This document shows, piece after piece, positions 23,712 through 47,476 of a stretch of 59,404 nt of DNA. The stretch lies in NCBI GenBank assembly GCA_022652815.1, contig JALCRR010000009.1:1-59404 (forward strand), in the 5' to 3' direction. The stretch's first letter is position 1; each line of letters opens with the position of its first letter. A program made the position numbers and the translations under genes. Source of the stretch: Oscillibacter sp. Lineage in GTDB: Bacteria; Bacillota; Clostridia; Oscillospirales; Oscillospiraceae. The notes beneath the pieces were generated by a model. The model ran no database searches and was not told the DNA's origin. It was given only the letters and a program-made list of their open reading frames with translations.

Positions 23712-23888
23712 GTGGAGCAGGAAAAGAAAGTCAAGCTGCTGGTTTACGCCACGGAGGATGAGCGCACGCGCATCAAAATGGCGGCGGCCAAGCTGCACAT
23801 GTCCATGAGCCAGCTCATGCTGGACAGCGTTTTAGAGCAGGTGGGCAGCATCGAGACGCTGGAGAGCAAAGGCGGTGACCGGGCATGA
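23712..23888 (+). CDS. Small ribbon-helix-helix protein of the partition cassette
   Basis: The 58-residue protein starts at a GTG with GGAGG 8 nt upstream. The sequence KVKLLVYATEDERTRIKMAAAKLHMSMSQLMLDSVLEQ has the beta-strand plus two-helix pattern of CopG/MetJ-type DNA-binding proteins. It overlaps parA by 4 nt (ATGA). In plasmid partition cassettes, RHH proteins in this position repress the operon or act as centromere adaptors. Since a ParB with its own HTH follows, autoregulation is the more likely role. Confidence 0.75.
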   Translation: MEQEKKVKLLVYATEDERTRIKMAAAKLHMSMSQLMLDSVLEQVGSIETLESKGGDRA

Positions 23889-24667
23889 AAACGATTGCGG
23901 TTATGAACCAGAAGGGCGGCACCGGCAAGACCACCTCCGCCATCAATCTGGCTGGCGAGCTTGTGCGCCGGGGCAAAAAAGTCCTCATCATCGACATGGA
24001 CACCCAGGGCAACGCCACGTCCAACTTAGAGCTCACCGAGGTACCCAAGTACACCATTGCGGACGTCATCTGCGATAAAAACCCCACGGTGGCGGAGGTC
24101 ATCTGCCGCACCACCATTGAGCATCTGGATATCGTCCGGGGCGGCAGCCTGCTGGCGCCGGCCCTCTCCGCCATGCAGGACATGCCCTTTGGCCGGGACA
24201 CGACCCTAAAGCGCCTCCTGCCCCAGATCCCCGCGGAATACGACTACGTGTTTTTCGACTGCTCGCCCTCTCTTGAGAGCCTCTTCAACATCAACGTCCT
24301 CGTGGCGGTGCAGTACGTTTTAATCCCCATCAAGGTGGACAAGAACTCCATCGAGGGCTACGACGTCATGCTGGACACCATCCGCTCCGTGCGGGAGATC
24401 GCCAACCCGGATATCCGGGTGCTGGGCATCTTCATGACGGCGGTGGAAACCGGCGCCACCATGGATCGGGAAATGATTGAAAACCTGCCCAAGCTCCTGC
24501 CGGAGCTGGCCTTTTCTACATACATCCGCAAGAACATCGACGTGAAGAAGGCGCCGCTGGCGCTCCAGCCCCTGTGCTTCTTCTCCCCCCGCTGCGCGGC
24601 GACGGAGGATTACGCCGGTCTGACCGACGAAATGCTTGTGAGAATGGAGGCGCAGGACAATGGCTAA
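23885..24667 (+). CDS. parA: ParA/Soj-family partition ATPase
   Basis: The 260-residue protein has the deviant Walker A KGGTGKTTSAINLA, switch I (DMDTQGNATSNL), Walker B (YVFFDCSPSLESL) and the ParA C-terminal KKAPLALQPLCFFSP. It lacks an N-terminal HTH, so it is the short (type Ib/chromosomal-like) form. ParA forms ATP-dependent dimers on the nucleoid and moves ParB-bound DNA. It is translated from an overlapping start with the RHH gene and overlaps parB by 8 nt. Placement at the edge of a phage-like region suggests it partitions an extrachromosomal form of that element. Confidence 0.93.
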   Translation: MKTIAVMNQKGGTGKTTSAINLAGELVRRGKKVLIIDMDTQGNATSNLELTEVPKYTIADVICDKNPTVAEVICRTTIEHLDIVRGGSLLAPALSAMQDMPFGRDTTLKRLLPQIPAEYDYVFFDCSPSLESLFNINVLVAVQYVLIPIKVDKNSIEGYDVMLDTIRSVREIANPDIRVLGIFMTAVETGATMDREMIENLPKLLPELAFSTYIRKNIDVKKAPLALQPLCFFSPRCAATEDYAGLTDEMLVRMEAQDNG

Positions 24668-25583
24668 AAAGGCTCCATCCATCTTCTCCACGCTGCAAAA
24701 GACGGCGGACAGCGCCGCTGTCAACGGCGAATTCACCCGGGAGCTTCCCCTCTCCGCGCTGGAGGACAACCCCATGAACCGTTTTTCCATGGCGGAGGAC
24801 GAGGAATTCCTCGCCACCATGGAGTCCGTCAAAAAGGACGGCTTTTTAGAGGACATCGTGGTCACGCCGTCCGAAACCGAGGGCAAATGGCGCATCGTCT
24901 CCGGCCACCGGAGAGTTGCCGCCGCCCGGAAGTTGGGCAAGACCGCCGTGCCCTGCAAGGTCCGCCACTACGTCGACCAGCTCGCGGAGCTGCGGGCCCT
25001 GATGGGCGCGAACCTGCACCGGCGCAACCTCTCCCCCTTTGACCTTGCCCGGCAACTGGAGACCCTGCGGGACGTGCTGGCTACCGAGGGCAAGCTGCCC
25101 GACGGTGCCAAGGAGCGCTCCGAGGCGCTGGCCGCCCAGTCCGATCTCTCCCGCGCCACGGTGGAGCGGTATCTGGACTTGCTGAACCTGGACGAGACGC
25201 TGACCGCGTGGGCGGAGAGCGGCAAGATGACCATGACCGACGCCTACGAGCTGGCGCGGCAGAAGAATCAGCATCTCTACCCGGTGGTGGAGCAGTATGT
25301 TGCCAAAAACGGCCCCAAGGACGATTTCCCGGCGCTGGTGCATCGGGCGATTGCCTGGGCAAAGACGGCGGAGCTTGCTCCCGTGCCGCCCAAGCCCGCG
25401 GCCAACCCCCTGCGGACGGTGGATTCCTTTGGCCGGGCCATCCGGCGCAGTACGGCGCAGATGAAGGAGTTGAATCTTGCAGACGAGGCGGACAAGACCG
25501 CCGCCCGGAAGAAGCTGGACACCTGCCTTTTGAACCTCGATGAGCTTCGCCGCACGGTGGAAGCCCTGAAGGAAAGCCTGTAA
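24660..25583 (+). CDS. parB: ParB-family partition protein
   Basis: The 307-residue protein has the ParB N-terminal CTP-binding fold (VSGHRRVAAARKLG, ANLHRRNLSPFDLARQLETL). A central HTH (AAQSDLSRATVERYLDLLNL, then TMTDAYELARQK) and a C-terminal helical dimerisation part follow. ParB binds parS palindromes, clamps and slides on DNA. Candidate target sites are the ACTCAyGTGAGT palindromes at 35.4, 38.7, 43.2 and 47.5 kb, which share the TCACGTGA core of bacterial parS. It ends the cassette, followed by a strong terminator. Confidence 0.9.
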   Translation: MAKKAPSIFSTLQKTADSAAVNGEFTRELPLSALEDNPMNRFSMAEDEEFLATMESVKKDGFLEDIVVTPSETEGKWRIVSGHRRVAAARKLGKTAVPCKVRHYVDQLAELRALMGANLHRRNLSPFDLARQLETLRDVLATEGKLPDGAKERSEALAAQSDLSRATVERYLDLLNLDETLTAWAESGKMTMTDAYELARQKNQHLYPVVEQYVAKNGPKDDFPALVHRAIAWAKTAELAPVPPKPAANPLRTVDSFGRAIRRSTAQMKELNLADEADKTAARKKLDTCLLNLDELRRTVEALKESL

Positions 25584-27705: not shown

Positions 27706-27745
27706 GTTTTTCGTACGACGTTTCTAAACAGAATATGGAACACAA

Positions 27746-27778: not shown

Positions 27779-27782
27779 GTTC

Positions 27783-29853: not shown

Positions 29854-29890
29854 CAGCCCCGGAGAATTCTCTCCGGGGCTGTCGCTTTTT
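29854..29890 (+). terminator. Terminator hairpin, copy 2 of the identical pair
   Basis: The 28-nt core is identical to that at 25597-25624 and is again followed by a run of T on the plus strand. No plus-strand gene precedes it here, so in this place it has no obvious transcript to end; it marks the right edge of the defence insert. Confidence 0.85.
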
Positions 29891-30606: not shown

Positions 30607-31112
30607 GCTGTGATCTCCACGCATACCGCGCCGGTGAGTGCAGCGTAGAGCGTCCCCTCGGCGGTCATTTCGCCGCAGGGCACCACGCTCCACTGAAGAT
30701 GTGCGGGCATCAGGCGCGTGAGCGCGCTCTCCAGCGCCCCGGTGTCACCGGGCAGGCGATTTTCCGATACGGCAGTTACTTCCGCCGTCCAGTTTGCGAA
30801 ATCCTCCGCCACCTCGCCCCGGTCGGCACCGCCTATGCTGACGCATAGCCCCCGCAGATACGCCGGCGTCACCGTCTGACCGCCGGAAAGCGCCGTCAGA
30901 ATCCGCGCCCGGCGCTCGGCAAGACTGCCTGCGGAGGAAAGGCCGTAGTCTCGCTCCCACAGGGCAAGCCCCGCCTCGTCCGCCGTCTGTACGGACAGTC
31001 TGGCGTTCTGCGCGTCCGCGGCTTGGGACAGCTCCGCAACCCCACCGTCGATGGCGGTCAGCGTCTCCCCCACCGGGGAGATGTTCTTTAGAAAATCAGG
31101 AAGTCTTGCCAT
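30603..31112 (-). CDS. Phage tail/baseplate protein, YmfQ (DUF2313)-like
   Basis: The 169-residue protein follows the baseplate J gene directly, as YmfQ/XkdU-type proteins do in PBSX- and Mu-like tails. It has ERDYGLSSAGSLAERRARILTALSGGQTVTPAYL, the pattern of DUF2313 (gp48-like), which links baseplate and fibre. It overlaps the endolysin by 4 nt. No tail-fibre gene follows; normally one would be expected here. Confidence 0.75.
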   Translation of the reverse strand: MARLPDFLKNISPVGETLTAIDGGVAELSQAADAQNARLSVQTADEAGLALWERDYGLSSAGSLAERRARILTALSGGQTVTPAYLRGLCVSIGGADRGEVAEDFANWTAEVTAVSENRLPGDTGALESALTRLMPAHLQWSVVPCGEMTAEGTLYAALTGAVCVEITA

Positions 31113-31115
31113 GGC

Positions 31116-31910
31116 TTAACCCTCCGTTTCCGCTTCCGTCAGCGTGACGGTTCCCGCCACGGGGATTGCCCGGGCAGCAAGCGTCACGCTCTGGGTGCCG
31201 CCCTGGAGCGTGAACCCGGTCACGTCGGCAACGCCGCTGCACTCCAGCAGCAGGCGGGACACCTTGGCATAACTGACCGTACTGGTTTTCAGGGCGTTTT
31301 CGGCGCAAAACGCGGTCAGTGCCGCGGTAAAGGCGGTCTGTACGGTTGACAGCGCCGCGCCGTCCATCAGCGTCACCGTGGCAGCGACGTTCAAGCCCGT
31401 TTCGGTTGGCGCAAACACCTGCGCGTCCGCGCCCACGGGACGGTTTGCGTCCACCACAGCCTGTGCCGCAGCAAGCAGCGCGGTCGATGCCGCCCGTCCG
31501 GCGGTATCCACTGCCAGAATGTCCACTGTGCCGTTGCCTCGGGCAAGGGGCAGGACTTTCACCCGCAAAATCCCCTCCACGCCGGTGCACCACGCAGTGT
31601 AGTGGTCGGCGTTGCCGGAGGCGGGCAGCGCGGAAAGCCGGGCAAGCGTCCGGGCACGCAGCGCCTCGTCCCCCTCGCCGTCCAGCCGGGTAACGCCCCG
31701 GTCGGCGCAGAGGTTGGTCAAATCGTTGCCAACGGCCTCAGACACGAACGCCCGCAGGGCAAGGCCGTCGATTGCCGTGGCGTAAAGCTCGGCCATGGCG
31801 TCGGCGCAATCGCGGAGCACGTCACCGGCGAAGCTGCCCTCGTCGGTACTGCCGGGGCCAGTGTAGGCGGCGGTGAGCCGCGTGAGAATGGCGTCTTTTG
31901 TAAATTCCAT
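31116..31910 (-). CDS. Baseplate J-like protein (gp47/XkdT family)
   Basis: The 264-residue protein has the baseplate J pattern: GSFAGDVLRDCADAMAELYA, RGVTRLDGEGDEALRARTLARL, and NADHYTAWCTGVEGILRVKV. It forms the baseplate wedge of contractile tails. It is shorter than the usual ~350 residues. Its start overlaps the stop of the gp25/DUF2634-like gene by one base. Confidence 0.85.
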   Translation of the reverse strand: MEFTKDAILTRLTAAYTGPGSTDEGSFAGDVLRDCADAMAELYATAIDGLALRAFVSEAVGNDLTNLCADRGVTRLDGEGDEALRARTLARLSALPASGNADHYTAWCTGVEGILRVKVLPLARGNGTVDILAVDTAGRAASTALLAAAQAVVDANRPVGADAQVFAPTETGLNVAATVTLMDGAALSTVQTAFTAALTAFCAENALKTSTVSYAKVSRLLLECSGVADVTGFTLQGGTQSVTLAARAIPVAGTVTLTEAETEG

Positions 31911-32341
31911 TAGAGTTCCCCCTCCCAGCTTTGCTGAAGTTCTTCATAAATCGTGTGGACGGTAAACGTCACCGTCACAGCCGCGCCGCTGAAAACGAAG
32001 GCAAATCCGTCCACGGATGTGATGTACGGGCTGACCGTCAGCGTCTCGCGGATTTCCCGGCGCAGCTGACTTTGCAAAATGCCCCGATCCGTCTCCCCCA
32101 GCAGCGCGGAAAGTCCGCTGCCGTAGTCGTTTGAGTGGGCGGAGTACCGGAACCGCTCGTTTTCCGGCGCCAGCGCCAGATGCACCCAAATTTTCAGTGC
32201 CTCCGCGCCAGACACGGTATAGGGCTTGCCGTTTCGCAGGGCAAAGGTGCCCGCGTCCCAGTCCACAGCCCACTCGGTGTAAAGGGGCAGCGCTTCTTGC
32301 GCCTGCGCCGGCGCGGTTTCCTCCCAGTCGGGAAAAATCAT
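31910..32341 (-). CDS. Phage baseplate protein, XkdS-like (DUF2634)
   Basis: The 143-residue protein resembles DUF2634/XkdS, the gp25-like wedge component. Features are the N-terminal FPDWEE, the central YSAHSNDYGSGLSALLGE and REIRETLTVSPYITSVDGF. Position between the DUF2577-like and baseplate J genes matches the PBSX gene order. Confidence 0.78.
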   Translation of the reverse strand: MIFPDWEETAPAQAQEALPLYTEWAVDWDAGTFALRNGKPYTVSGAEALKIWVHLALAPENERFRYSAHSNDYGSGLSALLGETDRGILQSQLRREIRETLTVSPYITSVDGFAFVFSGAAVTVTFTVHTIYEELQQSWEGEL

Positions 32342-32345
32342 GTGG

Positions 32346-32588
32346 TCACACTCCCTCCGTTTTTCCTAAAATCAAAAATCCGTCGCCGCAATTAAGCAGC
32401 GCCAGCGTGCAGCCGACGTCCTCGTTGGCAAACGTCTGCCCCGTTAATCGATGCAGGCCGTCTGTCAAGTCCGTACCGCCCACGGCAACCGTCAAGGGCG
32501 CGATGGCCTTCAGCGTGCCGAAGCAGCCGCCGCAAGCCCCGGACGCCCGGGGCGTCAGAAGCTCCAAAAGCTCGGAATAGATGTTCAT
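32346..32588 (-). CDS. Small phage baseplate protein, XkdR-position (DUF2577-like)
   Basis: The 80-residue protein starts at 32588 (GGAGG 5 nt upstream); a longer frame runs into the repeat element and is rejected. The sequence MNIYSELLELLTPRASG and VAVGGTDLTDGLHRLTGQTF has no clear domain. Length and place between the gpD-like and DUF2634 genes match the small XkdR-type protein. A conserved CGGC lies near residue 20. Confidence 0.6.
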   Translation of the reverse strand: MNIYSELLELLTPRASGACGGCFGTLKAIAPLTVAVGGTDLTDGLHRLTGQTFANEDVGCTLALLNCGDGFLILGKTEGV

Positions 32589-32706
32589 GTTGTCCTCCTT
32601 GCAGATCATGCACACACCGTGTGCGGAAGATGCGGCAACTGCCGCCAAAACCCACGCTGATGCGTGGAGAGAAATGCGGCGCTCTGCCGCAGAGGATGCG
32701 GCCTTG

Positions 32707-33294
32707 CCGCAGGAATCCGCGCTGATGCGCAGAGGGAACTGCAACCCCCATTCTTTTTCGTCTTGCCGAAAAAGAATGCGCCTTGCAAGGTGGAAGAAAA
32801 AGGCGCTGATGACACACCCCACGGCAAGGCTTTGCCGCGGGGACCTCGTGTCTGGGGAACGCACGGAGAGGGTTTGAAAGAATCCGAGCCAATTCCCGCG
32901 TCTCGCGGAGGGGCTGGCAAAAACCTGTGGTACAAACCCGAAAGGCCTTTCCCTCTTGCCCGCGCGTTCCGCTTACCCGCAAGGGGTATGCGATATCCGT
33001 AAGGCGGCAAAGCCGCCAACGGCTATCCAATCGCTACGCACTACCTGGGCGGTAAATGTAAGCGCAAGCGATGTAGAAGCAGAGACAATGCAGGTTTCTT
33101 CCCCGGACGAAAACGACTGCGCGCTTTCGCGTCTACTGGATGCACCAAAGGTTTGCCGCAGACGAACTTTCAGCGCGTTTCTCTTACACCGTGCGAGGCG
33201 CGTTCTCTCTGGTCAAGACCAGAGAGAATGGGGACCGCAACCCTTGCGGCGGTGCGCCGCAGTTCTCCCCGGCTATCAGGCCGGGTTCCTGCGG
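32707..33294. repeat. Dispersed element copy A with terminal inverted repeats
   Basis: A 588-bp stretch between two tail genes is bounded by imperfect inverted repeats (left CCGCAGGAATCCGCGCTGATG; right arm reads CCGCAGGAACCCGGCCTGAT on the other strand). A perfect 12-bp hairpin CATTCTTTTTCG..CGAAAAAGAATG lies at 32749-32778 and a second hairpin (GCGTTCTCTCTGGTC..) near the right end. Related copies lie at 38115 and 42696. No reading frame is conserved with a known protein and no transposase is present. A partial extra terminal repeat (CACGCTGATGCGTGGAGAG) lies just to the left. Confidence 0.75.
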
Positions 33295-33310
33295 TGAAGG
33301 CTGGAATCCC

Positions 33311-34201
33311 TCACAGTTTCAGTGTCAGCTCCGTTGTGAACAGTCCCGCCTTCCAGCGGTGGGTCACGGCGGTAATGGTAAACGTCCCCCGCAGCCCCCA
33401 GTCGGGAAGATTTGCGGTCACGATGCCGCCGGATTTTAAGGCGAGGTCGCCCAGAACCGTTATATCGGCGGTAAAGGTCTTGCTCGTCAGCGCGGCTTTC
33501 GCCTGCGCCGAGGCGCCGGAGATGGCTCCCTGCAAGCTCTGCACCTGCTGGAACTGGCCGTATTTGGCGCGGTCTGCGGCATTTTCTGCGCTCCCCGCCA
33601 CCGCGCCGTTGGACTTCACCACCAGGCACCGATTGACGATGCTGCCAATGTCGCTGCGGCACACGATGTCCAGCACGTTTTCGGCTTTCAGCGTCGCCGC
33701 CGTTCCCACGGTCTTGGCGATGGCCAACTTCGTGCCGTCCATGGTAATCTCCCGGTCATCGCCCACCGCCCGGCGCAGAATGGAAAACGCGGAGTCTCCT
33801 GCCAGCGCCGTGATGACCTGATAGCCGCTCTTTGCGTCCACGGAGGCAATCGCGATGCCCAGCCGGGACGCCACCTGCGCGGCGATCTGCGCGCCGGTTC
33901 CGGCAAACACGCCGGAAAGCTCGTTGCGAGTCAGATAGATGCCACGGTCGCAGGCAGTGACGGTAAAGGTTTCCGGCGTGCGCTCCAAGGTCTGAACGGA
34001 GCCGAGAAACACGCGCTTGCCCTTGTCGTCCAGCAGCTGCACCGCGTCGCCGGTGGCGATGGTCAGCGTTTGGAAGTACGTGTCCGCCGTGGCGCGCCAG
34101 AACATGGCGGTCAGCGTGGCGGCGGCCTCCGTGCGGGCTTTTTGCAGCGTGATGACGCTGGCGATGTGCCCCACGGCGGTGCCTCGAATCGTCAAAATCA
34201 T
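33311..34201 (-). CDS. Phage late-control D / XkdQ-like baseplate hub protein
   Basis: The 296-residue protein starts at 34201, overlapping the LysM gene stop (ATGA). It has the gpD/XkdQ pattern: FTVTACDRGIYLTRNELSGVF, QIAAQVASRLGIAIASVD, FSILRRAVGDDREITMDGTKL, and C-terminal FTITAVTHRWKAGLFTTELTL. It forms the hub at the tail tip. The upstream LysM protein is its usual partner. Confidence 0.85.
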   Translation of the reverse strand: MILTIRGTAVGHIASVITLQKARTEAAATLTAMFWRATADTYFQTLTIATGDAVQLLDDKGKRVFLGSVQTLERTPETFTVTACDRGIYLTRNELSGVFAGTGAQIAAQVASRLGIAIASVDAKSGYQVITALAGDSAFSILRRAVGDDREITMDGTKLAIAKTVGTAATLKAENVLDIVCRSDIGSIVNRCLVVKSNGAVAGSAENAADRAKYGQFQQVQSLQGAISGASAQAKAALTSKTFTADITVLGDLALKSGGIVTANLPDWGLRGTFTITAVTHRWKAGLFTTELTLKL

Positions 34202-34818
34202 ACCGTCAGCACCGTCCCAATCTGCAAGGAGTGGGGGTTGGAGATGCCGTTTTTGGCGGCAAGCGTCCCCCACTTCGTGCCGTCTCCGTAAAGGCGGCAG
34301 GCGATGCCCCACAGGGTGTCGCCGCGCTTGACGGTGTAGGTTTTGGGCGCGGTGCGCTCATCGGTGCGGGCGGTGGTGGTTTTGGTTGCCGTGCTTGCGC
34401 CGCCCCCTGCCAGCGTGGATTTGAATTTGTACTCCCGGAGCGTCACGGAAATACCCACGTCCGCGTCACCCTCGCGCAGCGTCTCGGATACGTCCTCGAT
34501 GAGAAACGCGTCGTTGATGTCGCTATCCGAAACGATCAGGCGCACGGGGTCGCCGGAGTCCTGCCACGACCGCAGCCGGGTCAAAACCGTCTGGGGCGAC
34601 GTGCCGGTAAAAAACGGCGAATTCTCGTCCGGGAGAAACGTGGTCAGCCGAACCTCCCGCAGTCCCCTGCCGCCCCAAATGTTGGCGCTGCCGCCCATGG
34701 CAAGGGTGCAGACGCGGTTGGTGTTGGGGCGCGTCACCGTAATTTCGGCAGGATTCACTGTAAAGTAGATGCGCTCCACGCCGTTGTTGTGCCAAAGCAA
34801 AACCGTTCTTGTGTTCAT
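34198..34818 (-). CDS. LysM-domain tail protein (XkdP-like)
   Basis: The 206-residue protein starts at 34818 (GGAGG 6 nt upstream). The N-terminal ~130 residues are the XkdP/YqbP type (MGGSANIWGGRGLREVRLTTFLP, FLIEDVSETLREGDADVGISV). A C-terminal LysM motif follows (YTVKRGDTLWGIACRLYGDGTKWGTLAAKN). It joins tail tube, tape measure and baseplate in PBSX-like tails. Here the gene before it is not a normal tape measure. Confidence 0.85.
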   Translation of the reverse strand: MNTRTVLLWHNNGVERIYFTVNPAEITVTRPNTNRVCTLAMGGSANIWGGRGLREVRLTTFLPDENSPFFTGTSPQTVLTRLRSWQDSGDPVRLIVSDSDINDAFLIEDVSETLREGDADVGISVTLREYKFKSTLAGGGASTATKTTTARTDERTAPKTYTVKRGDTLWGIACRLYGDGTKWGTLAAKNGISNPHSLQIGTVLTV

Positions 34819-34828
34819 GGAAAACCTC

Positions 34829-35995
34829 CTATCGGACGCGCTTGGCTCTGCGCAGACCCTCCAGCAGCTCCCGGAGGGCAAAATCCGCGAATTCCGACTT
34901 CATTTCGTGCAGAGCCTCCCGGCTGTTTTCGTCAGATTCCGACTTCATTTCGTGCAACATATTGGGCATTTCCGACTTACTTTCGTGCAGCGTATCCGGC
35001 ATTTCCGACTTACTTTCGTGCAGCGTATCCGGCATTTCCGACTTGGTTTCGTGCACACCGTCCCCGAATTCCGACATGATATCGTGCAGCAGTTTTGCCT
35101 CTCCGGCGCTCAAATCCGACTTGATTTCGTGCACCTCGCCTCTGTCGGAGGCATTCGCTTTTGTTTTCAAGTCGTTCTCGCGCCCAAAATCTTTGCCGTC
35201 AGAGGATACTCCGGCGGCTGATTTTGTTTTTGTCCGGGATTGGTCGTTTCCTACATTTTGTGATGCCGGTTTCCGGGCAAATACCACGGTTTGTGGATTT
35301 TTGTCCGATTTTTGGCCTTTTTGGACCTGCCGGACACCCGGGCGGTTTTCGGCAAAAAACTCACGTGAGTCTTGTCCACGCAATCTGGGTGATGGAACTC
35401 CGTTTTCCGCATGCACGGTTTCAGGTCGGATTTCACGAACCGCTTCCTTGCGGGACTGCACGGCGGGACGTCGGATTTCCTCGCTGTTCGGGGCGTTTTT
35501 GTCCTGCACGGTTTTGTGTCGGACTTTGCTGGACTGGTTCCCGGAATCCTGCACGGATTCGGGTCGGACTTTTTTTTTGCTCTCCGGGTCGGTACTGCCG
35601 GAACCATTTTGGGCATTTTGTTTCTTAAGTGGTTGTATTGTACCAGGATCGCATTGGGCATCCTGTTTGGCTTGTGCGCGCTCAATGTCCGAATCCGCGC
35701 CGGACAGCTTTCGCACGGCGTCCGCGCCGGCTTTGGCCTCGTCGTCGGACACGAACTGCATGATTTCGTCCGGCGTAAACAGCTTGCCCTCGGCGCGCAG
35801 CGCCTCACCGGCCAGCTGCAAGTCCCGGGAGGCGGCGTACAGCACGGCCCGGTCGCCGTCGCCGCTGTGGGAAAGCGCGGCGCATTCCCGGGCGGTCAGA
35901 CCCTGGGCACGAATCGTGCCCAGAGCCCCGCAGGCCACACTGACGGACTGATTTGCCCCCTGAATCCGGGCGCGCAGAACGTCCGTCAGGGCCAT
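34829..35995 (-). CDS. Tail-assembly-chaperone-like protein with a long repeat-bearing extension
   Basis: The 388-residue protein has two parts. Residues 1-~105 (LTARECAALSHSGDGDRAVLYAASRDLQLAGEALR, FTPDEIMQFVSDDEAKAG) look like the XkdN-type tail assembly chaperone that follows the tail tube gene. Residues ~110-388 are hydrophilic and low in complexity, with 11- and 15-residue units of the type LHESKSEMPDT near the C-terminus and VRPESVQ-type units in the middle. These peptide repeats come from 19-bp DNA motifs lying in both orientations. In PBSX order a large tape measure should follow the chaperone; none is present, so this extension stands in that place. The start overlaps the tail-tube stop (TAATG). 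Confidence 0.6.
   Translation of the reverse strand: MALTDVLRARIQGANQSVSVACGALGTIRAQGLTARECAALSHSGDGDRAVLYAASRDLQLAGEALRAEGKLFTPDEIMQFVSDDEAKAGADAVRKLSGADSDIERAQAKQDAQCDPGTIQPLKKQNAQNGSGSTDPESKKKVRPESVQDSGNQSSKVRHKTVQDKNAPNSEEIRRPAVQSRKEAVREIRPETVHAENGVPSPRLRGQDSREFFAENRPGVRQVQKGQKSDKNPQTVVFARKPASQNVGNDQSRTKTKSAAGVSSDGKDFGRENDLKTKANASDRGEVHEIKSDLSAGEAKLLHDIMSEFGDGVHETKSEMPDTLHESKSEMPDTLHESKSEMPNMLHEMKSESDENSREALHEMKSEFADFALRELLEGLRRAKRVR
34893..35133 (+). repeat. Iteron-like array, seven direct 19-bp copies
   Basis: TCCGAC-N7-CGTGCA occurs at 34893, 34938, 34971, 35004, 35037, 35070 and 35115 on the plus strand, with start-to-start spacing of 45, 33, 33, 33, 33 and 45 bp. The most common form is TCCGACTTCATTTCGTGCA; the copy at 35070 has ATCGTGCA. 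The array lies inside the 3' half of the chaperone-like gene on the opposite strand. Confidence 0.85.
35358..35369. promoter_or_regulatory. parS-like palindrome 1
   Basis: ACTCACGTGAGT lies within GGACAAGACTCACGTGAGT (minus strand), between the direct and inverted iteron arrays and inside a coding sequence. It has the TCACGTGA core of bacterial parS. Confidence 0.5.
35412..35568 (-). repeat. Iteron-like array, four inverted 19-bp copies
   Basis: The same motif TCCGAC-N7-CGTGCA occurs on the minus strand at 35412-35430, 35457-35475, 35505-35523 and 35550-35568, spaced 45, 48 and 45 bp. The peptide encoded (RPETV-like) is unrelated to that of the direct copies, so the conservation is of DNA rather than protein. 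Confidence 0.8.
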
Positions 35996-36438
35996 TACTC
36001 ATTCACCTCAATGCGCTCCAGACACTGGAGGTCGCTGGGGCGGAAGGTAAACGGCAGCTTCTGCTGGTTGACCGCGCCCATTTTGTAGCCAATGAACGGC
36101 AGCTCGGTAAAGGCCACGTTGCCGATGGAATAGCGCTCCTCGCCGCCGTCCTGGGCGTCGGGGTCTTTCAGCGCGGTGGTGATGGTGCAGCGCTTGTCAA
36201 CGCCGCGCTTCGCCTGCTCCAAAACCTCGTAAAAGCGGGTGTAGACCTGCTTGACGGTCATGGTGCCGGAGCCGGAATAGCCGGTAATTTTGCTGTCCAC
36301 GTCCATGCCCAGCTGGACATTTTCCCGCTGGAGCTTGACGGTCAGCGTCAGCTCGGACAACTCCGCGATGCGTGCGCCGTCCACCCAAACCTCGGCAAAA
36401 GAGCCGGACAGGGTGCGGTTTGCCTGTAATTCAGCCAT
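35995..36438 (-). CDS. Phage tail tube protein (XkdM-like, DUF2001)
   Basis: The 147-residue protein has the tail-tube pattern FAEVWVDGARIAELSELTLTVK, GSGTMTVKQVYTRF and GNVAFTELPFIGYKMG. It polymerises into the inner tube of contractile tails. It follows the sheath gene by 22 nt, as expected, and is the last clearly canonical gene before the repeat-bearing protein. Confidence 0.87.
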   Translation of the reverse strand: MAELQANRTLSGSFAEVWVDGARIAELSELTLTVKLQRENVQLGMDVDSKITGYSGSGTMTVKQVYTRFYEVLEQAKRGVDKRCTITTALKDPDAQDGGEERYSIGNVAFTELPFIGYKMGAVNQQKLPFTFRPSDLQCLERIEVNE

Positions 36439-36460
36439 AAATTTTCCTCCTTTTCAGCCG

Positions 36461-37501
36461 TTACATTGCGATCTTCAGCGACAGATCCTCCATGGCGTCG
36501 CAGAAGGTCAGATTTGCCTCCAGAAAGACCTCGCTGCCGGTGTTTGCGCGGAGGATGGCGGTGTCCTTCATATCGGAGGTGTCGGTGCCGCGGCTTTCCA
36601 GCCAGTTTTTCTGCCCGGCGAGAGACACGCTGCACAGGTTTTCGGCGGTTTTGTCCAGCACGTCGCCCTCCAGACTCTTGAGATAGGCGTTGACGGCGGT
36701 GACCAGCAGCAGCTTGTTGTCGTAGTCGTTGAGCACCTTGCCGATGTAGCCGCTTTCAAAGGCGGCGGCGATGTCCGTGCGGATGAGATCGACGCCCTCC
36801 ACGATCTTGATTTTCTGGAACGGTGCGCCGTGATCGGTGGTCAGGGTCGTCAGCGAGTTGACGGCGCGGCCGAGGCGATAGCCGTCGGAGCCCTGCGCCA
36901 CAATGAGTTTGCCGTTGTCCACGGCATCGTCGGGATCGGCAACTGCGTCGCAGGAGACGATCTCCGCGAGATTTGCGTAGGTGGCGGAGCGGGTCAGCGG
37001 CAGCGCCGCCAGCAGTCCCGCAATGCGCACCGCGTAGTCGGTGGCAGTGACGGTGCCGTCGGTGAGCACCAGATTGTCGGCGCAGAAGTTCACGATGCCC
37101 TCGCAGTCGGGAGCGGTGGCGTTTGCCACCACGGCCTTGACGCCGCAGCCTGCGGCGCGCTGGGTCTTGATGAAGCTGACCACCTCGGTTGCGGTCAGCG
37201 CCGGAGCCGCCAGCCAGTCGAAGTGCAGGGTCTTGAGCGCCGCGAAGTCATCTGCGGAGTCCTCGCTTGCCCGCAGCACCACGACCTTGCTGGGTGCGGC
37301 CAGAAAGGCCAGCTGCAAAAGCCGCACATTGGCGGCGGTAAATTTGCTCTTGTCCACGTCGGCAAGGCTGCGGTAAGTGGCGACCGCCTCACCGCCGACG
37401 GTTGCGTCGGTCAGCACCAGCGCCAGCACGCCCCGTGCGGAGCGTGCGATGGCGGACACTGCCGCCGTCTGAAACGAGATAAAGATTTCAGGCATTCCCA
37501 T
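36461..37501 (-). CDS. Phage tail sheath protein (XkdK-like)
   Basis: The 346-residue protein starts at 37501 (GGAGG 8 nt upstream). It carries the sheath pattern of the PBSX/Clostridia group: FQTAAVSAIARSARGVLALVL, YANLAEIVSCDAVADPDDAVDNGKL, and C-terminal SGSEVFLEANLTFCDAMEDL-like beta region (here TGSEVFLEANLTF). Its presence shows that the tail is contractile (myovirus or tail-like particle). Confidence 0.9.
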   Translation of the reverse strand: MGMPEIFISFQTAAVSAIARSARGVLALVLTDATVGGEAVATYRSLADVDKSKFTAANVRLLQLAFLAAPSKVVVLRASEDSADDFAALKTLHFDWLAAPALTATEVVSFIKTQRAAGCGVKAVVANATAPDCEGIVNFCADNLVLTDGTVTATDYAVRIAGLLAALPLTRSATYANLAEIVSCDAVADPDDAVDNGKLIVAQGSDGYRLGRAVNSLTTLTTDHGAPFQKIKIVEGVDLIRTDIAAAFESGYIGKVLNDYDNKLLLVTAVNAYLKSLEGDVLDKTAENLCSVSLAGQKNWLESRGTDTSDMKDTAILRANTGSEVFLEANLTFCDAMEDLSLKIAM

Positions 37502-37514
37502 TTGATAGGCCTCC

Positions 37515-37913
37515 TTATAAATTCAGGTTGATTGTTTCCATGACCTCCGCGTCCCCTGTCCCGGTCTGGGGCAGCAGCGTGCAGAGCGTCACGGTAAACG
37601 TGAGGGCGTCGCCCTCGGTTTTCACGTCCAGCGGGTGCAGCACCCGCCCCTCCATGGGGATTCCGGCAAGGATGGCGGCAGATAGCCGGGTCAAAAGGGC
37701 GGTCTTGCCCTCCCGTTCCCGGTCGGATACCGCCCGGACGGTGACGGCGTAGCTGCGCTCGGCCTGCCGTCCGCCGTCCACCAGGACGCTGCCGGTTTCC
37801 CGGACGGTCACGGTAAGCACCGGATAGCCTGCTGCCTTGGATTTTTCCTCCGCGGCGCGGATGCCGGTGCATTTTTCCAAATACTGCGCCACGGCAGCTT
37901 GCATGATTTTCAA
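37515..37913 (-). CDS. Phage tail terminator-like protein (XkdJ position, DUF6838-like)
   Basis: The 132-residue protein lies just upstream of the sheath gene (13 nt). MQAAVAQYLEKCTG at the N-terminus and GGRQAERSYAVTVRAVSDREREGK in the middle fit small tail-completion proteins of PBSX-like prophages. The fold is not certain. Its upstream neighbour is repeat element B, so it begins a new transcription block or depends on read-through. Confidence 0.65.
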   Translation of the reverse strand: MKIMQAAVAQYLEKCTGIRAAEEKSKAAGYPVLTVTVRETGSVLVDGGRQAERSYAVTVRAVSDREREGKTALLTRLSAAILAGIPMEGRVLHPLDVKTEGDALTFTVTLCTLLPQTGTGDAEVMETINLNL

Positions 37914-38114
37914 AAAATACCTCCTTTGGGGCCTAAAGGGTCATCAATGTCTTGTGCCGCAAGGCTTTCAAGCGTCAAGCTGCTTTCCAGCCGTTATTTT
38001 TGCAGAAAACGACCATTTGATCGTTTTTTTGTCCTGATATCGGCTCCATTCCGGTTTGCGCCCGCAATCCCTTGCAAACAGGGACTTTTTGTGCAACCCC
38101 CATCTTCTCTGGTG

Positions 38115-38620
38115 TTGTCCGAGACAATCCGCGCTGATGCGTGGAGAACTCCAACCCCCATTCTTTTTCGTCTTTCCGAAAAAGAATTCGCCTTGCATGG
38201 TGGAAGAAAAAGCCGCTGACGGCACACCCCACGGCAAGGCCTTGCTGCGGGGACCTCGTGCCGGGGGAACGCGCGGAGAAGCCAAGAAGTGATCCGGCAC
38301 CTCCCCGCGTCTTGCGCCAGCGCCACCGATTCGTGGTGCAGACCTGAAAGGCTTCAGCTCCTTGCCCCGCGCGTTACGCGCTGCCCGGGCGTTTGAGGGT
38401 AAGCGCCAGCGAGTTAGGAGCAGAGGCAATGCAGGGTTCTGCCCCCAGCTTCCGCAACTGAGCATGACCGCGTCTACTGGATGTACCAAAGGTTTGCCGC
38501 AGACCAACTCTAAGCGGTTTTCTTCTCCACCGTCCGAGGCGCATCTTCTTTGCCCAAGAGCAAAGAAGATGGGGGTCGGAGTTCTCTCCGTGCATCAGCG
38601 CGGATTCCCCTGCCGCAACA
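38115..38620. repeat. Dispersed element copy B with terminal inverted repeats
   Basis: About 500 bp between the tail-terminator and head-connector genes. The left arm AATCCGCGCTGATGCGTGGA and the right arm (AATCCGCGCTGATGCACGGA on the other strand) are inverted repeats. Hairpins CATTCTTTTTCG.. at 38159 and ATCTTCTTTGC..GCAAAGAAGAT near 38540 lie inside each end. Copy B is the most diverged of the three. The whole intergenic stretch 37914-38793 has no supportable gene. Confidence 0.7.
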
Positions 38621-38658
38621 CGGCACGTTTTCAGCGGTGAACCACCGTTTTACAAAAA

Positions 38659-38670
38659 ACTCACGTGAGT
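38659..38670. promoter_or_regulatory. parS-like palindrome 2
   Basis: ACTCACGTGAGT, with the same flanks on the minus strand (GGACGAGACTCACGTGAGT followed by T6), just right of element B. Confidence 0.5.
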
Positions 38671-38793
38671 CTCGTCCGAGCAAGCTGCGTATCACTCGAA
38701 AACGGCTTTGCCGTTTCCTCGCTTACTTCGCTGCTCGTCCTCTTCCCCAAAAGACCCGCTGCGCTGGGCTCTTTCGGGGACCCCAATCGGGGC

Positions 38794-39150
38794 TTACGCC
38801 CCGGTGTGAACCTCCCTCACCTCCACCACGGTGATGGTGTGGCTGGGATAGCAAAAGCTGTCGGACGCTGTCGCCGCAATGGTTTGCGCCCCCCGGACGA
38901 TTGCCAGCCGGTCGCCGATTTGGAACGCGACGCCCGGCTCGGTGAACAGCGTCAGGCGGTAGGCCGCCTCGGGCACAGCCCCCTCCGCGTCTGGAGGGGT
39001 GGGGGAGGCCACCTGCGCCGAGCGGGAGAGGGCGCCGCGCACGTTTTCGCACACCGTTTTCTCCGTCCCGTCCGGCAGAGGCCGGAACGCGGACACCTTG
39101 TCGTCGTAGGTGCGCGCCAGTTGATAGGCCATCATGACGTCTGCGTTCAT
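38794..39150 (-). CDS. Phage head-tail joining protein (putative)
   Basis: The 118-residue protein starts at 39150 (GGAGG 4 nt upstream) and overlaps the preceding connector gene by 4 nt. The C-terminal half (YRLTLFTEPGVAFQIGDRLAIVRG, YPSHTITVVEVREV) has the small beta-barrel look of head-completion proteins. The N-terminal MNADVMMAYQLARTYDDKVSAF is helical. The family is not recognised by name; position after the gp6-like connector supports the call. Confidence 0.6.
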   Translation of the reverse strand: MNADVMMAYQLARTYDDKVSAFRPLPDGTEKTVCENVRGALSRSAQVASPTPPDAEGAVPEAAYRLTLFTEPGVAFQIGDRLAIVRGAQTIAATASDSFCYPSHTITVVEVREVHTGA

Positions 39151-39458
39151 GCGTCCTCCTTGACCGTTCCCAGTCTGCGCCACGGGGAGAGCAGGGCGGA
39201 GACGTCCTCCGCGCCGGACGCTGTAAAGGTCAGGGAGGTGTCGCCTCGCTTGAGGGCCTTCACGTTGCCGCCGGAGACGATGGCGGCGGCAAGCGCCGCC
39301 ACGGCCTGTTCCATATCGGGCGGGATGTCGGAGCGGTTGCACGCGGCGCAGGCGCGCTCGCCTGCCATGGTCACGATGGCGTCGCCGTCATCGCCAAACG
39401 CCTGCCCTGCAAGGAGTTCCGCTTTCGTCCGAATGGAGAAAACCTGCTCCGCCGTCAT
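39147..39458 (-). CDS. Phage head-tail connector protein (gp6/YqbG-like)
   Basis: The 103-residue protein is mostly helical (SIRTKAELLAGQAFGDDGDAIVTMAGERACAACNRSDI; MEQAVAALAAAIVSG). It directly follows the capsid gene with overlapping stop/start (TGATG). This is the usual place and size of the gp6-type connector that seals the portal ring. No portal gene is found in the element. Confidence 0.65.
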   Translation of the reverse strand: MTAEQVFSIRTKAELLAGQAFGDDGDAIVTMAGERACAACNRSDIPPDMEQAVAALAAAIVSGGNVKALKRGDTSLTFTASGAEDVSALLSPWRRLGTVKEDA

Positions 39459-42678: not shown

Positions 42679-42695
42679 TGTACTCTGCGGGGTTC

Positions 42696-43210: not shown

Positions 43211-43242
43211 CAAGGCCGCATTTCACGACAATCTCGGACAAG

Positions 43243-43254
43243 ACTCACGTGAGT
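43243..43254. promoter_or_regulatory. parS-like palindrome 3
   Basis: CGGACAAGACTCACGTGAGT followed by T-run, just right of element C and 32 bp before the Mor-like gene start. It could also serve as a terminator for read-through from terL. Confidence 0.5.
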
Positions 43255-43285: not shown

Positions 43286-43573
43286 ATGCATCATCTTCTC
43301 AATGTCAATCCCGATCTTGCCATCACCCCCGACGACGTGCCGGAGGAGTACCGCGACATCGTGGACGTCATCGGCCTCGAGGCCTTCATGCAGCTGACGC
43401 TGCTGTGCGGCGGGCAAAACCTGTACATCCCCAAGCGGGAGTCGCTGGAGCGGGACGGGCGCAACCGGGAGATCAAAGCCCGCTTTAACGGCGGCAACTA
43501 CCGGGATCTGGCGATTCTCTTCCGCCTTTCGGAGCGGCAGGTGCGCAAAATCATCAACGGCGAGCACAACTGA
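43286..43573 (+). CDS. Mor-like transcription activator (phage)
   Basis: The 95-residue protein starts at 43286 (GGAG 7 nt upstream). FMQLTLLCGGQNLYIPKRESLERDGRNREIKARFNGGNYRDLAILFRLSERQVRKII has the beta strand, linker and C-terminal HTH of the Mor/C family, which in phage Mu switches on middle and late genes. Here it lies between terminase and replication genes. It may activate the divergent structural operons, with the 40642-40667 palindrome as one possible target. Confidence 0.82.
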   Translation: MHHLLNVNPDLAITPDDVPEEYRDIVDVIGLEAFMQLTLLCGGQNLYIPKRESLERDGRNREIKARFNGGNYRDLAILFRLSERQVRKIINGEHN

Positions 43574-43711: not shown

Positions 43712-45007
43712 ATGCCGAACGATTCCGGCTCCCCGGAGGAGCTGCGCAAGACTCCCCTGCGCTTTTTACAGTCCGACCAGTTCGTGGAGATGCTGCAAAC
43801 CTACGGAAATCTCAAGCCGCTGGAGGGCAAACCCAAAAAGACGTTTGCCGCAGCACTTGCCAAATACGATTTTGAGCAGATCTACCCCCTGATGGATCTG
43901 TTTCTGGAGACGCATGTCCTTGCAACGGCGGAATCCCGGGCAAAAGCCGTGGCCGAGGCCGCGCCGGAGACGGTGAAATTCGCCGCCACCCTGCTGGAAA
44001 TCTTCGAGACCACGGTGGCGGATCGCACCCTCTCCCAGTACGACATTTTGGGCAACAGCCCGGCGACGTACTTCATCTGCGGCGTGTGGGCAAACATGAA
44101 GCGCGGGCGGGAGTTCCACCCCGCATCCAACGGCATCACCGTCACCTATTCCGAGCCGGACGCCTACGGCAACCAGAACATCTCCTACCGCAACAAGGAC
44201 TACGAGATGACGCTGATGTTCGAGGCCGTGTCCGAGTACACGAAAAAGCTTAGCTGGACGGCGCACCGCCTGCTGGTCTACACCCTGATGCAGGGCAACG
44301 TCCAGAACTGGCGGAACAACTGCGCCACGTTTACGGTCAGCGATTACATGACCTGGGCGGGCTTAAAAAGCCGGGACGCCACGTACCGCCAGCTCAAGGG
44401 CGACGTGCAGAGCATCACCGGCGTAAAGCTCACCGCCGAATCCTATAAGAAGTACTTCGAGTCCTTCTACACCACCCACCTTGCCACCGAGGCGCAGATC
44501 AAGAAGTACACCGGCGAGGTGCGCATCACCTTTGCCGAGAACGTCCGCCACTTTTTGACCCAGTACTACCAGCTGATTCCCGACTGGATGGGGCATTTGA
44601 GCGAAAACGCCTACCGCATGGCATTCTACCTCTTCTACCGCGCCCGGAAGGACCCGAGAGCCGTGTCCGGAGCGTTCCACGTCGGCATTGAGGACATCGT
44701 GGAGTACATCGGCCTGCCCACCAAGGCGGAGGTCAAGAACCGCAACTATGACGAGGCCATCATGAAGCCGTTTAACAAGGCCGTGGAGGAGATTGAGAGC
44801 ATCTCCGGGGGCTCGTTCACCATGGACTTTGACTATGACAACATCAACACGTTCCTCTCCGGCCAGATGACCGTGGGCGTGGACGCCGCCATGACGGACT
44901 ACATCGAAAAGCTGGACAAGGCCCGCACTGCCAAGCGGCTGGAGAGCGGCAAGAAGAAACCCCGGAAAAAGGCGAAAAAAGAGGGCGACGAATCCGCCGC
45001 CCAGTGA
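43712..45007 (+). CDS. Putative plasmid/phage replication initiator (winged-helix Rep-like)
   Basis: The 431-residue protein starts at 43712 (GGAGG 8 nt upstream). It is not recognised with certainty. Two regions look like winged-helix units: TAHRLLVYTLMQGNVQNWRNNCATFTVSDYMTWAGLKSRDATYRQLKGDVQSI and AYRMAFYLFYRARKD..FHVGIEDIVEYIGLPTKAEVKNRNYDEAIMKPFNKAVEEI. Twin winged helices are typical of iteron-binding Rep initiators. The C-terminus is very basic (SGKKKPRKKAKKEGDE). The gene is followed by a 584-bp non-coding region with iteron-like motifs and then a primase-helicase, which fits an initiator next to its origin. Confidence 0.6.
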   Translation: MPNDSGSPEELRKTPLRFLQSDQFVEMLQTYGNLKPLEGKPKKTFAAALAKYDFEQIYPLMDLFLETHVLATAESRAKAVAEAAPETVKFAATLLEIFETTVADRTLSQYDILGNSPATYFICGVWANMKRGREFHPASNGITVTYSEPDAYGNQNISYRNKDYEMTLMFEAVSEYTKKLSWTAHRLLVYTLMQGNVQNWRNNCATFTVSDYMTWAGLKSRDATYRQLKGDVQSITGVKLTAESYKKYFESFYTTHLATEAQIKKYTGEVRITFAENVRHFLTQYYQLIPDWMGHLSENAYRMAFYLFYRARKDPRAVSGAFHVGIEDIVEYIGLPTKAEVKNRNYDEAIMKPFNKAVEEIESISGGSFTMDFDYDNINTFLSGQMTVGVDAAMTDYIEKLDKARTAKRLESGKKKPRKKAKKEGDESAAQ

Positions 45008-45591
45008 CCGAAAGCAGCCCGTTTCCCCTGCGGGACGGGCTGTTCCGGCGTCTTTTATCTGCACGATTCCATGTCTGAATTCCCTGTTTTGCTTCCCTGT
45101 TTCAAGGCTGCTCGGTGGAATGTCTCCACGGGCTTTTCCACATTTACAGGGCCGCAACCCCCGGAAATTCCCAATTTACCAAGAAAGCTGGCATGAAACC
45201 GGGCGCCTGTCTGAAACTTTGTCCACACCGTGGAAAAGGCGTCCCCTGCCGACCTTGAAACGCTGTCCGATTCCGACCTCAAGCCGTGCAGTGGCGCACC
45301 CTTTCCCGTGCAGTTCCGACCTCGCTTCGTGTTTGAACGACTTCGGAACGTGCAAAGCCCCACTTCCGCTCCCTGTTATTTTTCCCGGTTTTTGCAACTT
45401 TTATTCCCACATCTAACCAGAATTTTTCCCCTTTTTTCCTCTTTTTCCAACAAACTTTTTTTCTGCCTTTCCCCCCGAAATTCCCCTTATAGATATCTTA
45501 AGATATTTTAGACGTTCGGCATCCTTCGCCTGCCGGGACGTCTTTTGCTATAATTAGACAAAATACACCGCACGAAAAGGGAAGTGACCCC
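45008..45591. other. Candidate replication origin region
   Basis: This non-coding stretch contains copies of the 19-bp iteron motif. There is an exact TCCGAC-N7-CGTGCA at 45272-45290, a near copy at 45315-45333 (ending CGTGTT), an inverted near copy at 45060-45078 and a degenerate one at 45248-45266. A long pyrimidine-rich, AT-rich tract (about 45420-45470) and a 14-bp palindrome ATATCTTAAGATAT (45493-45506) follow; these could be an unwinding element. A TATAAT at 45549-45554 is the probable -10 of the primase gene. Origin function is inferred. Confidence 0.55.
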
Positions 45592-47421
45592 ATGACTGAC
45601 ACCTTTGACGCCCTGCGTCCTCATATCCTCGACTACCTCTATGACCGGAAGATCGACCCCGCCCGGCGCTTTCGCTGCCTGAACCCGGAGCACTGCGATC
45701 GCAACCCCTCCATGGGCTACGATCCCAACCGCATGAAGGTACACTGCTTCGCCTGCGGCGCAGACTACGACCTCTTTGACCTGCTGACCATCGACGAGCA
45801 CCTCACCTCACCGGGGGAGGCACTGAAACTTGCACAGGCAAAATACGGCGCACCGCTGCCGCTGAAAACGCAACCCACCGCCGCAAAGACGGCGATACCG
45901 CCAAAATCAACGGGCTGTGCGCTGTTTCGCCCATCGGCGGAATATATAGCCAATTGCTATCAAAACCGAAACGAAACCGATTACTTCGCCCAGCGCGGTC
46001 TGTCTCCCGCCACCATGGAGCGTTTTCAGCTGGGCTATGATGCTAAGGCCGACTGCGCGGTGCTGCCCTGTGAGGGCGGGCACGTGGTGCGCCGGAGCGT
46101 CACGGAGAAGAAATACCTCAACGAAAAGGGACAGCCCTCGCCGCTGTTCCAGCCGGAGCTGCTGGAGAGCGGAGAGCCTTGCTTTCTTCTGGAGGGCACG
46201 TTTGACGCACTGTCTGCGGAAGAACTGGGCTACCGAGCCGCTGCACTGAACGGCGCCGGAAATCGGGAGAAGCTCGCCCAGCGGCTGCGGGACCTCAAAA
46301 AGCCCGCCCCGGTCTTTGTCATCACGGACAATGACGCGGCAGGCGAGGGCTGGGCGGCAGCGCTTTGCGCCGAATTCCCGTGGGTCTGGCGCTGCGATGC
46401 CGTGCCGGAGGGGAAGGACTTAAACGAATTTCTCACCGCCGACCGGACCAAGTGCGCCGGGTGGCTGAAAACGCAGTTTGACGCCGGTATGGCGCACCGT
46501 CCGCCTCCGTATTCTTCGACCTCCGCCGCCGGACGTATGGACGCCCTCGCCGCCCACATCGCGGAAATGGCGGTGCGTCCGGAGCTGTCCACGGGCTTTC
46601 CCGCGGTTGACAAGGCACTGGACGGCGGGCTTTTTGATGGGCTTTACGTCCTCGGCGCGGTGTCGTCTCTCGGCAAGACGTCGTTTTGTATGCAGATGGC
46701 CGATCAGCTGGCGCAGCAGGGGAGAGACGTGCTGATTTTCACGTTGGAAATGGACGCGTTCGAGCTGATGGCGCGTTCCATCTCCCGGGAATCGTTTCTG
46801 GCGGACACCTCGGCTCGGCGACAGATGGCCAAGACCGTCCGCGGCGTGCTGGACGGGCGGCGGTACGTGCGCTACACGATTGCCGAGCGCGCCCATCTGG
46901 ACGATGCCAAGCAGACATACGCTGGTTACGCGGGGCATCTTTACTTCCGGGAAGGCGACCACGAGACGGGACTGGACACCATTCAGCGGGAGATTGAGCG
47001 CCACATCGCGGAAACCGGCGTGCGCCCGGTGGTGCTGATCGACTACTTGCAGATCATCGCCCCGGTGGACGTCCATTTCACCGACAAGCAGAACCTCGAC
47101 CGCATCGTGTGCTCCCTGAAAAAGCTGTCGCGCCAGTACAAGCTGACGATTTTCACCATCTCGTCGTTCAACCGGGAGAACTACAATCTGGAGGTCTCCA
47201 TGGCGGCATTTAAGGAGTCCGGCGGCATTGACTACTCCGCCGATGTGTTACTGGGCTTGCAGGCGCGAAATGCCGGTTCCCGCAGCTTCAACATCGACGA
47301 GGAAAAGCGGAAAGACCCCCGGGAGCTGGAGCTGAAGATCCTGAAAAACCGCTCGGCAGCACTGGGGGAGCCGGTGCCTCTGCGGTATTACCCCGCGTTC
47401 AGCTGTTTCGAGGAGGGGTAA
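45592..47421 (+). CDS. Phage primase-helicase (zinc-binding, TOPRIM and DnaB-like domains)
   Basis: The 609-residue protein has three parts. The N-terminus carries a CHC2-like zinc site (FRCLNPEHCDRNPSMGYD, VHCFACGADYDLFDLL). The TOPRIM part has CFLLEGTFDALSAEELG and FVITDNDAAGEGWAAAL. The C-terminal RecA-like helicase has a Walker A-like GAVSSLGKTSFCMQMAD, Walker B RPVVLIDYLQIIAP and DnaB motifs (FTISSFNRENY, SGGIDYSADVLLGLQ). The plan equals that of T7 gp4-like primase-helicases. It would prime and unwind the element's own DNA. The helicase Walker A has SSLGKTS instead of the usual GxxxGKT/S, as in other DnaB proteins of phages. Confidence 0.9.
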   Translation: MTDTFDALRPHILDYLYDRKIDPARRFRCLNPEHCDRNPSMGYDPNRMKVHCFACGADYDLFDLLTIDEHLTSPGEALKLAQAKYGAPLPLKTQPTAAKTAIPPKSTGCALFRPSAEYIANCYQNRNETDYFAQRGLSPATMERFQLGYDAKADCAVLPCEGGHVVRRSVTEKKYLNEKGQPSPLFQPELLESGEPCFLLEGTFDALSAEELGYRAAALNGAGNREKLAQRLRDLKKPAPVFVITDNDAAGEGWAAALCAEFPWVWRCDAVPEGKDLNEFLTADRTKCAGWLKTQFDAGMAHRPPPYSSTSAAGRMDALAAHIAEMAVRPELSTGFPAVDKALDGGLFDGLYVLGAVSSLGKTSFCMQMADQLAQQGRDVLIFTLEMDAFELMARSISRESFLADTSARRQMAKTVRGVLDGRRYVRYTIAERAHLDDAKQTYAGYAGHLYFREGDHETGLDTIQREIERHIAETGVRPVVLIDYLQIIAPVDVHFTDKQNLDRIVCSLKKLSRQYKLTIFTISSFNRENYNLEVSMAAFKESGGIDYSADVLLGLQARNAGSRSFNIDEEKRKDPRELELKILKNRSAALGEPVPLRYYPAFSCFEEG

Positions 47422-47442: not shown

Positions 47443-47476
47443 GGTCGGACAAGACTCATGTGAGTCCTGTCCGACC
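47443..47476. terminator. Hairpin with parS-like palindrome 4 after the primase-helicase gene
   Basis: GGTCGGACAAGACTCA and TGAGTCCTGTCCGACC pair over 15 of 16 positions, with ACTCATGTGAGT at the centre (47454-47465). It lies between converging genes and can act as a terminator, though only CTCTTT follows. It probably marks the right edge of the mobile element. Confidence 0.6.

Follow-up and report, generated by a model that had tools for sequence, protein, structure and literature searches.

A putative initiator-binding array overprinted on a tail gene of a phage-like element in Oscillibacter

Why should a DNA word of the iteron type be repeated many times inside a phage tail gene? The window analysed here, the whole 59.4 kb contig JALCRR010000009.1 of an Oscillibacter sp. 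genome, contains a phage-like element (at about 23.7–47.5 kb) with parA, parB, defence-like genes, a contractile-tail/head cluster, terminase, a Mor-like activator, a replication initiator gene (rep) and a primase-helicase. A preliminary description of the window had reported eleven copies of a 19-bp word within one tail gene and proposed a copy-control, incompatibility or centromere locus. On the basis of sequence comparison, we consider it fairly probable that the array is an initiator-binding locus for copy control by titration or handcuffing, overprinted on the linker of a tail-assembly protein and with a parS-like palindrome at its centre.

The repeated word and the gene that carries it

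Every one of the eleven copies of TCCGAC-N7-CGTGCA reported earlier proved to be exact and in place, seven in direct and four in inverted orientation (Table 1). The direct copies start at 34893, 34938, 34971, 35004, 35037, 35070 and 35115 (plus strand; spacing 45, 33, 33, 33, 33 and 45 bp), and the inverted copies at 35412, 35457, 35505 and 35550 (minus strand; spacing 45, 48 and 45 bp). The earlier suggestion of near-integral helical turns fits the copies behind rep, which are 21–23 bp or about two turns apart, but not the spacings of 45 and 48 bp in the tail gene. As all spacings in the tail array are multiples of three, maintenance of the reading frame explains them no less well than helical turns do. 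The gene itself has a conserved N-terminal part of about 100 residues, a conserved C-terminal end of about 20 residues and a variable linker in between, which holds the array. Its product matched no Pfam or PHROG family, and we call it tail-assembly-chaperone-like solely from the position of the gene.

With up to two mismatches allowed, the window contains 22 matches to the word against an expected 7.6 (standard deviation 2.4), and none of 100 shuffled windows reached 22. A search of the whole genome (2.25 Mb) gave 12 exact matches, all in the window, the twelfth lying at 45272; the reversed control pattern gave none in the same 2.25 Mb. Scatter of the word across the chromosome, which would have spoken against the proposed locus, was therefore not observed. 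Among 149 other genomes of the family sample there were 28 exact matches distributed over 26 genomes, with a maximum of two per genome, and 38 matches to the reversed control, so that the 28 represent chance level. We reject a chance origin of the array in view of the window shuffles, the genome search and the family-sample control together, and a host-wide motif in view of the confinement of the exact word to the window.

One DNA word read in two orientations yields two unrelated peptides, of HExKSE type from the direct and of RPETV type from the inverted copies, as had been noted before. The accompanying claim that the conserved unit is the DNA word and not the protein is supported by three comparisons, for which slots with three or four mismatches were left out of the counts; slots of one gene are not independent. 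First, codons are fixed. Over 11 genes (four from rep-bearing elements and seven viral), the intact HExxSE-type slots use CAC for His in 76 of 76 cases and TCG for Ser in 76 of 76, and the array RxxxV slots use CGA for Arg in 42 of 42. These 42 remain after 12 of 54 matches to RxxxV[QHR] were left out as non-array (ten being the conserved C-terminal end), none of which uses CGA. Elsewhere in the four rep-bearing elements (eight or nine genes per element) TCG makes up 11–23% of Ser and CGA 0–4% of Arg codons; CAC there makes up 86–91% of His codons, so the His codon by itself tells little. Secondly, at fully conserved columns of six other genes in the same four elements a single codon is kept in just 11 of 50 Ser and 17 of 71 Arg columns. 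Finally, in 11 of 13 genes there are more exact words than in any of 300 synonymous shuffles made within the gene, the exceptions being L038 and L060. One observation weighs against a pure DNA reading: the second residue of the HExxSE unit, Glu, is encoded by GAA in 75 of 76 slots, though it lies outside the core word. This may reflect copying of units, or a longer word in the HExxSE block. The peptide is kept while the words weaken in three tail genes only, those of L060, L063 and L038; the first two elements are also without rep and parB, and the third is a viral contig for which rep status is not established.

Initiator gene, origin-type copies and related elements

The same word recurs beside the initiator gene, and there too the preliminary description was right in part, as one copy is exact and the remainder are degenerate. 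In all five elements that could be read, an inverted copy behind rep is followed by direct copies at 21–23 bp: five in the window (the two weak ones, at 45249 and 45294, were read by eye) and three each in L059, in Oscillibacter valericigenes An890 (G210 = L061, the same genus as the genome of the window), in Oscillibacter sp. MSJ-31 (G154 = L066) and in the human-faecal phage contig MT838800. The region behind rep is the usual place of initiator iterons. Many of these copies carry one or two mismatches, yet in an alignment of the five regions (mean identity 51%) all invariant runs of at least three columns fall in half-sites of the word. DnaA-box-like words were detected by a script scan in two of the five. 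The encoded Rep scores above the cut-off for Rep3_N, as do two of its homologues, and the other three aligned Reps are 68–70% identical to it. A Rep search of plasmid records gave no match; that of phage records gave one contig. A Rep profile recovered a single viral contig, which was known before, and no viral contig matched an exact pattern written for the 21-bp array at the origin.

The tail array is present at the same place in three other host-genome elements and eight viral contigs. Seven of the latter were found with a pattern of two neighbouring words, and a tail-tube profile added the eighth (L038), which has a weaker array of eight slots with one mismatch, two slots with two and no exact word. 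In addition, three of 400 family genomes gave a Rep match, the window's own included, and the tail-tube profile gave 12 loci from named records and had matches in 7 of 394 order genomes, again including the window's own. Contigs represented twice were counted once (L029/L048, L030/L046, L031/L037, L033/L041, L034/L036 and L009/L040). Intact arrays occur in the window, in O. valericigenes An890, in strain MSJ-31 and in L059, as well as in seven viral contigs, and comprise 9–14 words within 0.6–0.8 kb of a single coding linker; contig L032 breaks off within the array.

An intact array goes together with the presence of rep and parB, a conclusion supported by 17 genomes with a tail-tube homologue. 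Rep and this ParB were found in the same three, and these three and the window's own element have intact arrays. The other 14 have neither gene; among them no array is intact and two are decayed (L060 and L063), while five (L062, L064, L065, L070 and L073) have a recognisable tail gene with no array. The remaining seven are distant (tube 48–61% identical) and the start of the tail gene was not recognised in them; in one, L067, the sequence stops 0.4 kb after the tube. The 14 may include genomes present in more than one collection, as L064 and L073 carry identical genes. Of the slots with at most two mismatches, 12 of 29 in L060 and L063 together have two, whereas the figure for the four rep-bearing elements is 0 of 45 (Fisher p about 2e-6, with slots that are not independent) and that for the seven viral contigs, most of them without established rep status, is 3 of 76. 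In L063 the His codons have drifted to CAT in five of ten slots, with the peptide kept. Near homologues without the array (L039, L042/L044/L070, L043/L045, L047/L065, L062 and L064/L073; of these L039 and L043/L045 are short contigs for which rep status is not established) contain another linker, which lacks the peptide as well as the word, and both ends of the tail gene are conserved in them.

L060, L063 and L064 have other open frames at the place of rep, as read by eye. Both rep and parB are missing from their versions of the head-tail cluster, which are possibly domesticated particles or satellites.

Table 1. Coordinates of the array, the palindromes and associated genes in the window
Feature	Position	Strand	Evidence or remark
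parA	23885..24667	+	AAA_31 E=3e-44; ParA PHROG
parB	24660..25583	+	ParB N-terminal and HTH domains
Tail gene (388 aa)	34829..35995	-	Between tail tube and LysM tail protein; carries array in variable linker
Direct block (3' block of tail gene)	34893..35133	+	7 exact copies of the word TCCGAC-N7-CGTGCA; spacing 33 or 45 bp
parS-like palindrome AAAAAACTCACGTGAGTCTTGTCC, between blocks	35354..35377	.	
Inverted block (5' block of tail gene)	35412..35568	-	4 exact copies, 45-48 bp apart
Second palindrome copy	38658..38677	.	
Third palindrome copy, upstream of Mor-like gene	43236..43253	.	
Mor-like late transcription activator gene	43316..43570	+	Pfam Mor E=2e-14; PHROG late transcriptional activator
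Replication initiator gene, Rep_3 type (WH1 domain)	43712..45007	+	Pfam Rep3_N E=8e-12; PHROG replication initiation protein E=1.9e-5
Lone inverted copy immediately behind rep	45060..45078	-	Contains longest invariant run of the region across 5 elements
Origin-type iteron array, 21-23 bp spacing	45249..45354	+	One exact copy (45272), two copies with two mismatches (45315, 45336) and two weak ones (45249, 45294)
T-rich/AT-rich stretch, candidate unwinding region	45378..45511	+	Ends in block CTTATAGATAT..TTAAGATA common to three relatives; read by eye
Primase/DnaB-type helicase gene	45592..47421	+	Pfam/PHROG-type family searches
Fourth palindrome copy, behind helicase gene	47447..47472	.	

Palindrome, partition genes and competing readings

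The palindrome that had been placed between the two blocks is indeed present. Its pattern (GGACAAG.CTCACGTGAG) occurs at four places in the element, with one weaker match elsewhere in the genome. In each element holding both blocks these converge on the palindrome, and L035 and the MSJ-31 element have a further one just outside the 5' block. The four parB-bearing elements contain 4, 5, 5 and 9 sites and nine other regions 0–2, with none in L039, L065, L068, L069 and L070; a search of viral contigs with the exact pattern gave only two matches, both in array-bearing contigs. In the window, L032, L037, L041, L059 and MSJ-31 one contig carries both parAB and the array, and in O. valericigenes An890 parB is found on another contig. 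The central palindrome is probably a ParB site. The Mor-like protein is a candidate alternative binder, against which weighs that no palindrome occurs in the 13.2 kb of L039, where a Mor-like gene is present. Upstream of parA, about 94 bp (23593–23686) match the O. valericigenes An890 genome (C39:6327-6420) and another member of the genus; this segment is possibly a par promoter or operator, or a small upstream gene.

If the array is a copy-control locus, the eleven words would be iterons bound by the element's own Rep_3-type initiator. Rep would be bound by the near-consensus sites in the tail gene ahead of the degenerate iterons at the origin, 9.7 kb away, or the two sets would pair with each other (handcuffing), or both. 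Such a sink for Rep would limit initiation, set the copy number and exclude related elements. ParB, loaded on the central palindrome and spreading outward, could displace Rep from both flanks and thereby tie re-initiation to partition. An extension of this scheme, which we put forward as rather doubtful, is that the tail gene is an initiator sink gated by both transcription and partition: Rep would be held in quiescence, released by ParB spreading for one round of replication, and stripped off by late transcription at induction. Replication would then be tied to virion production. The locus may offer a clean case of regulatory DNA dictating the codons of a structural protein, with a word that has decayed in elements lacking the initiator gene. 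In addition, this phage-plasmid-like element of gut Clostridia lends itself as a natural test case for initiator titration, and for the ways in which a small element connects the control of replication with partition and with the expression of late genes.

Several observations weigh against a copy-control locus. Non-phage genes lie on both sides of the element in the window, and a tyrosine integrase was not found on the contigs of the window, MSJ-31 or G751, where serine recombinases were not searched for. The origin copies are degenerate, a single one in the window being exact. The weight matrix applied to them was built from tail arrays, which favours the tail copies. RepE-type autoregulation uses inverted half-sites upstream of rep, albeit not universally in the Rep_3 family; a simple word scan of 180 bp upstream of rep in each of six sequences found no inverted half-site pair common to all, a GTGC/GCAC pair being present in the window only. 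The AlphaFold model of Rep (four sequences) was poor (pTM 0.28) and a Rep profile had no sequence match among solved structures, so that a second winged-helix domain is putative. In the rep-less arrays of L060 and L063, Ser is still encoded by TCG in 14 of 15 slots, which indicates that decay is partial, and L063 still exceeds its synonymous shuffles. As to ParB, no palindrome was found next to parAB in the window, and L060, L063 and L064, which are without this parB, keep two palindromes each, one of the six being decayed; this speaks against ParB as the binder, or for slow decay.

The words could also be Rep sites with a transcriptional job, at which Rep blocks or senses late transcription across the tail gene, either by silencing tail synthesis in lysogeny or by being stripped off for lytic replication. 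The array lies among tail genes in every array-bearing element seen, and a transcribed position would make a natural sensor. Common descent would likewise explain the shared position, however, and the words lie deep in the coding region; we regard this job as unlikely. Less likely again is that the array belongs to the partition complex, with ParB or a partner on the words around a central parS and the origin words coupling both processes. The location of the palindrome between the blocks and the linkage to parAB would agree with it, whereas the word forms a regular 21-bp array behind rep and is absent near parAB in the window. Moreover, in L060 the words have decayed while the palindrome in the tail gene has stayed exact, which points to separate constraints on the two.

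A second origin or a replication enhancer is quite improbable. Distant initiator sites can enhance replication, as for a site on chromosome I of Vibrio cholerae (available text of PMC3937223), but the tail spacing of 33–48 bp differs from that of the 21-bp origin array, and the tail gene, not systematically searched for one, showed no evident AT-rich unwinding stretch. Selection for a repeated tail peptide, with the word as a by-product of duplication, would explain peptides conserved within each block, a spacing that keeps the frame and the GAA bias, but we reject it as most improbable, given the two unrelated peptides from one word, the fixed uncommon codons, near homologues with neither peptide nor word, the presence of the word behind rep, and free codon choice for these peptides in none of the four rep-bearing relatives.

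Surroundings of the element and known systems

Terminal repeats marking a circular element were not found on the contigs of the window, G210, G154, G751, G763 or G756, and the one tyrosine integrase on G210 C16 lies outside the phage genes. Flank searches in the genus showed that much of the left-flank operon is present in some relatives; no empty site was found in them. Within 29890–42678 terminase, major head protein and sheath are present, and tape-measure and portal proteins were not recognised among the proteins searched, which were not all of the frames; the interval from the tail gene to the LysM gene leaves no room for a tape-measure gene. The stretch from parB to the tail operon contains two Thoeris ThsB-like TIR genes (25772–26614 and 27094–27702), a PDC-M50A candidate (26629–27069) and an AbiLi-like ATPase gene (28588–29718), and the genes of 25772–29718 are, judged by their similarities, defence-like cargo. 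At about 32600–33000, 38000–38400 and 42600–43000, open-frame translations resemble one another over a long stretch (KALPWGVSSAPFSSTLQGAFFFGKTKKNGG-like), which suggests that an intergenic segment of DNA is repeated there. Genes for S-layer-homology proteins occur beside or within the element in three genomes (window 47546–51717, L053 1229–6650 and L086 16452–19994), two of the matches in the window being below the family cut-off. A c-di-GMP-I riboswitch (52378–52462, plus strand) lies just upstream of an open frame of 2021 residues (52478–58543).

Iteron plasmids of the P1 and F type have 19-bp iterons at the origin as well as in a distinct incA or incC control locus, a Rep_3-type initiator and linked parAB. 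These features recur in the element, with the tail array as the putative control locus, and the comparison with P1 made in the preliminary description holds as a functional likeness. It does not hold for location, as the control iterons of P1 adjoin repA, whereas the candidate ones described here lie in a virion gene 9.7 kb from the origin-type array and form two convergent blocks around a palindrome. The lambda origin likewise contains iterons. It lies inside gene O (available text of PMC7157519), and thus provides a precedent for origin-type sites overprinted on phage coding sequence; there, however, the sites are the origin itself and lie in the initiator's own gene, while here they are in a tail gene and apart from the origin-type array. 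Extrachromosomal mycobacterial prophages resemble the element in having a plasmid-type RepA and parABS with several parS loci, but each of their parS loci is a cluster of direct repeats (available text of PMC7157519).

A literature search for iterons in tail, structural or coding regions or in phage-plasmids returned no description of such an arrangement in the text available, most of it from outside subscription journals. Close functional parallels are off-origin sites that titrate the initiator and inhibit replication, namely Escherichia coli datA and the RctB sites of V. cholerae chromosome II, which lie about 40 kb from the origin of that chromosome and act in this way (available text of PMC3937223). 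For the latter a parS-linked effect on such a site is known as well, in that spreading of ParB2 interferes with initiator binding at the inhibitory site (available text of PMC3688505). The locus described here differs from both in that 9–14 words are packed into one coding linker. Iteron sinks are thus already known, and it is a two-way sink written into a virion gene that appears to be new.
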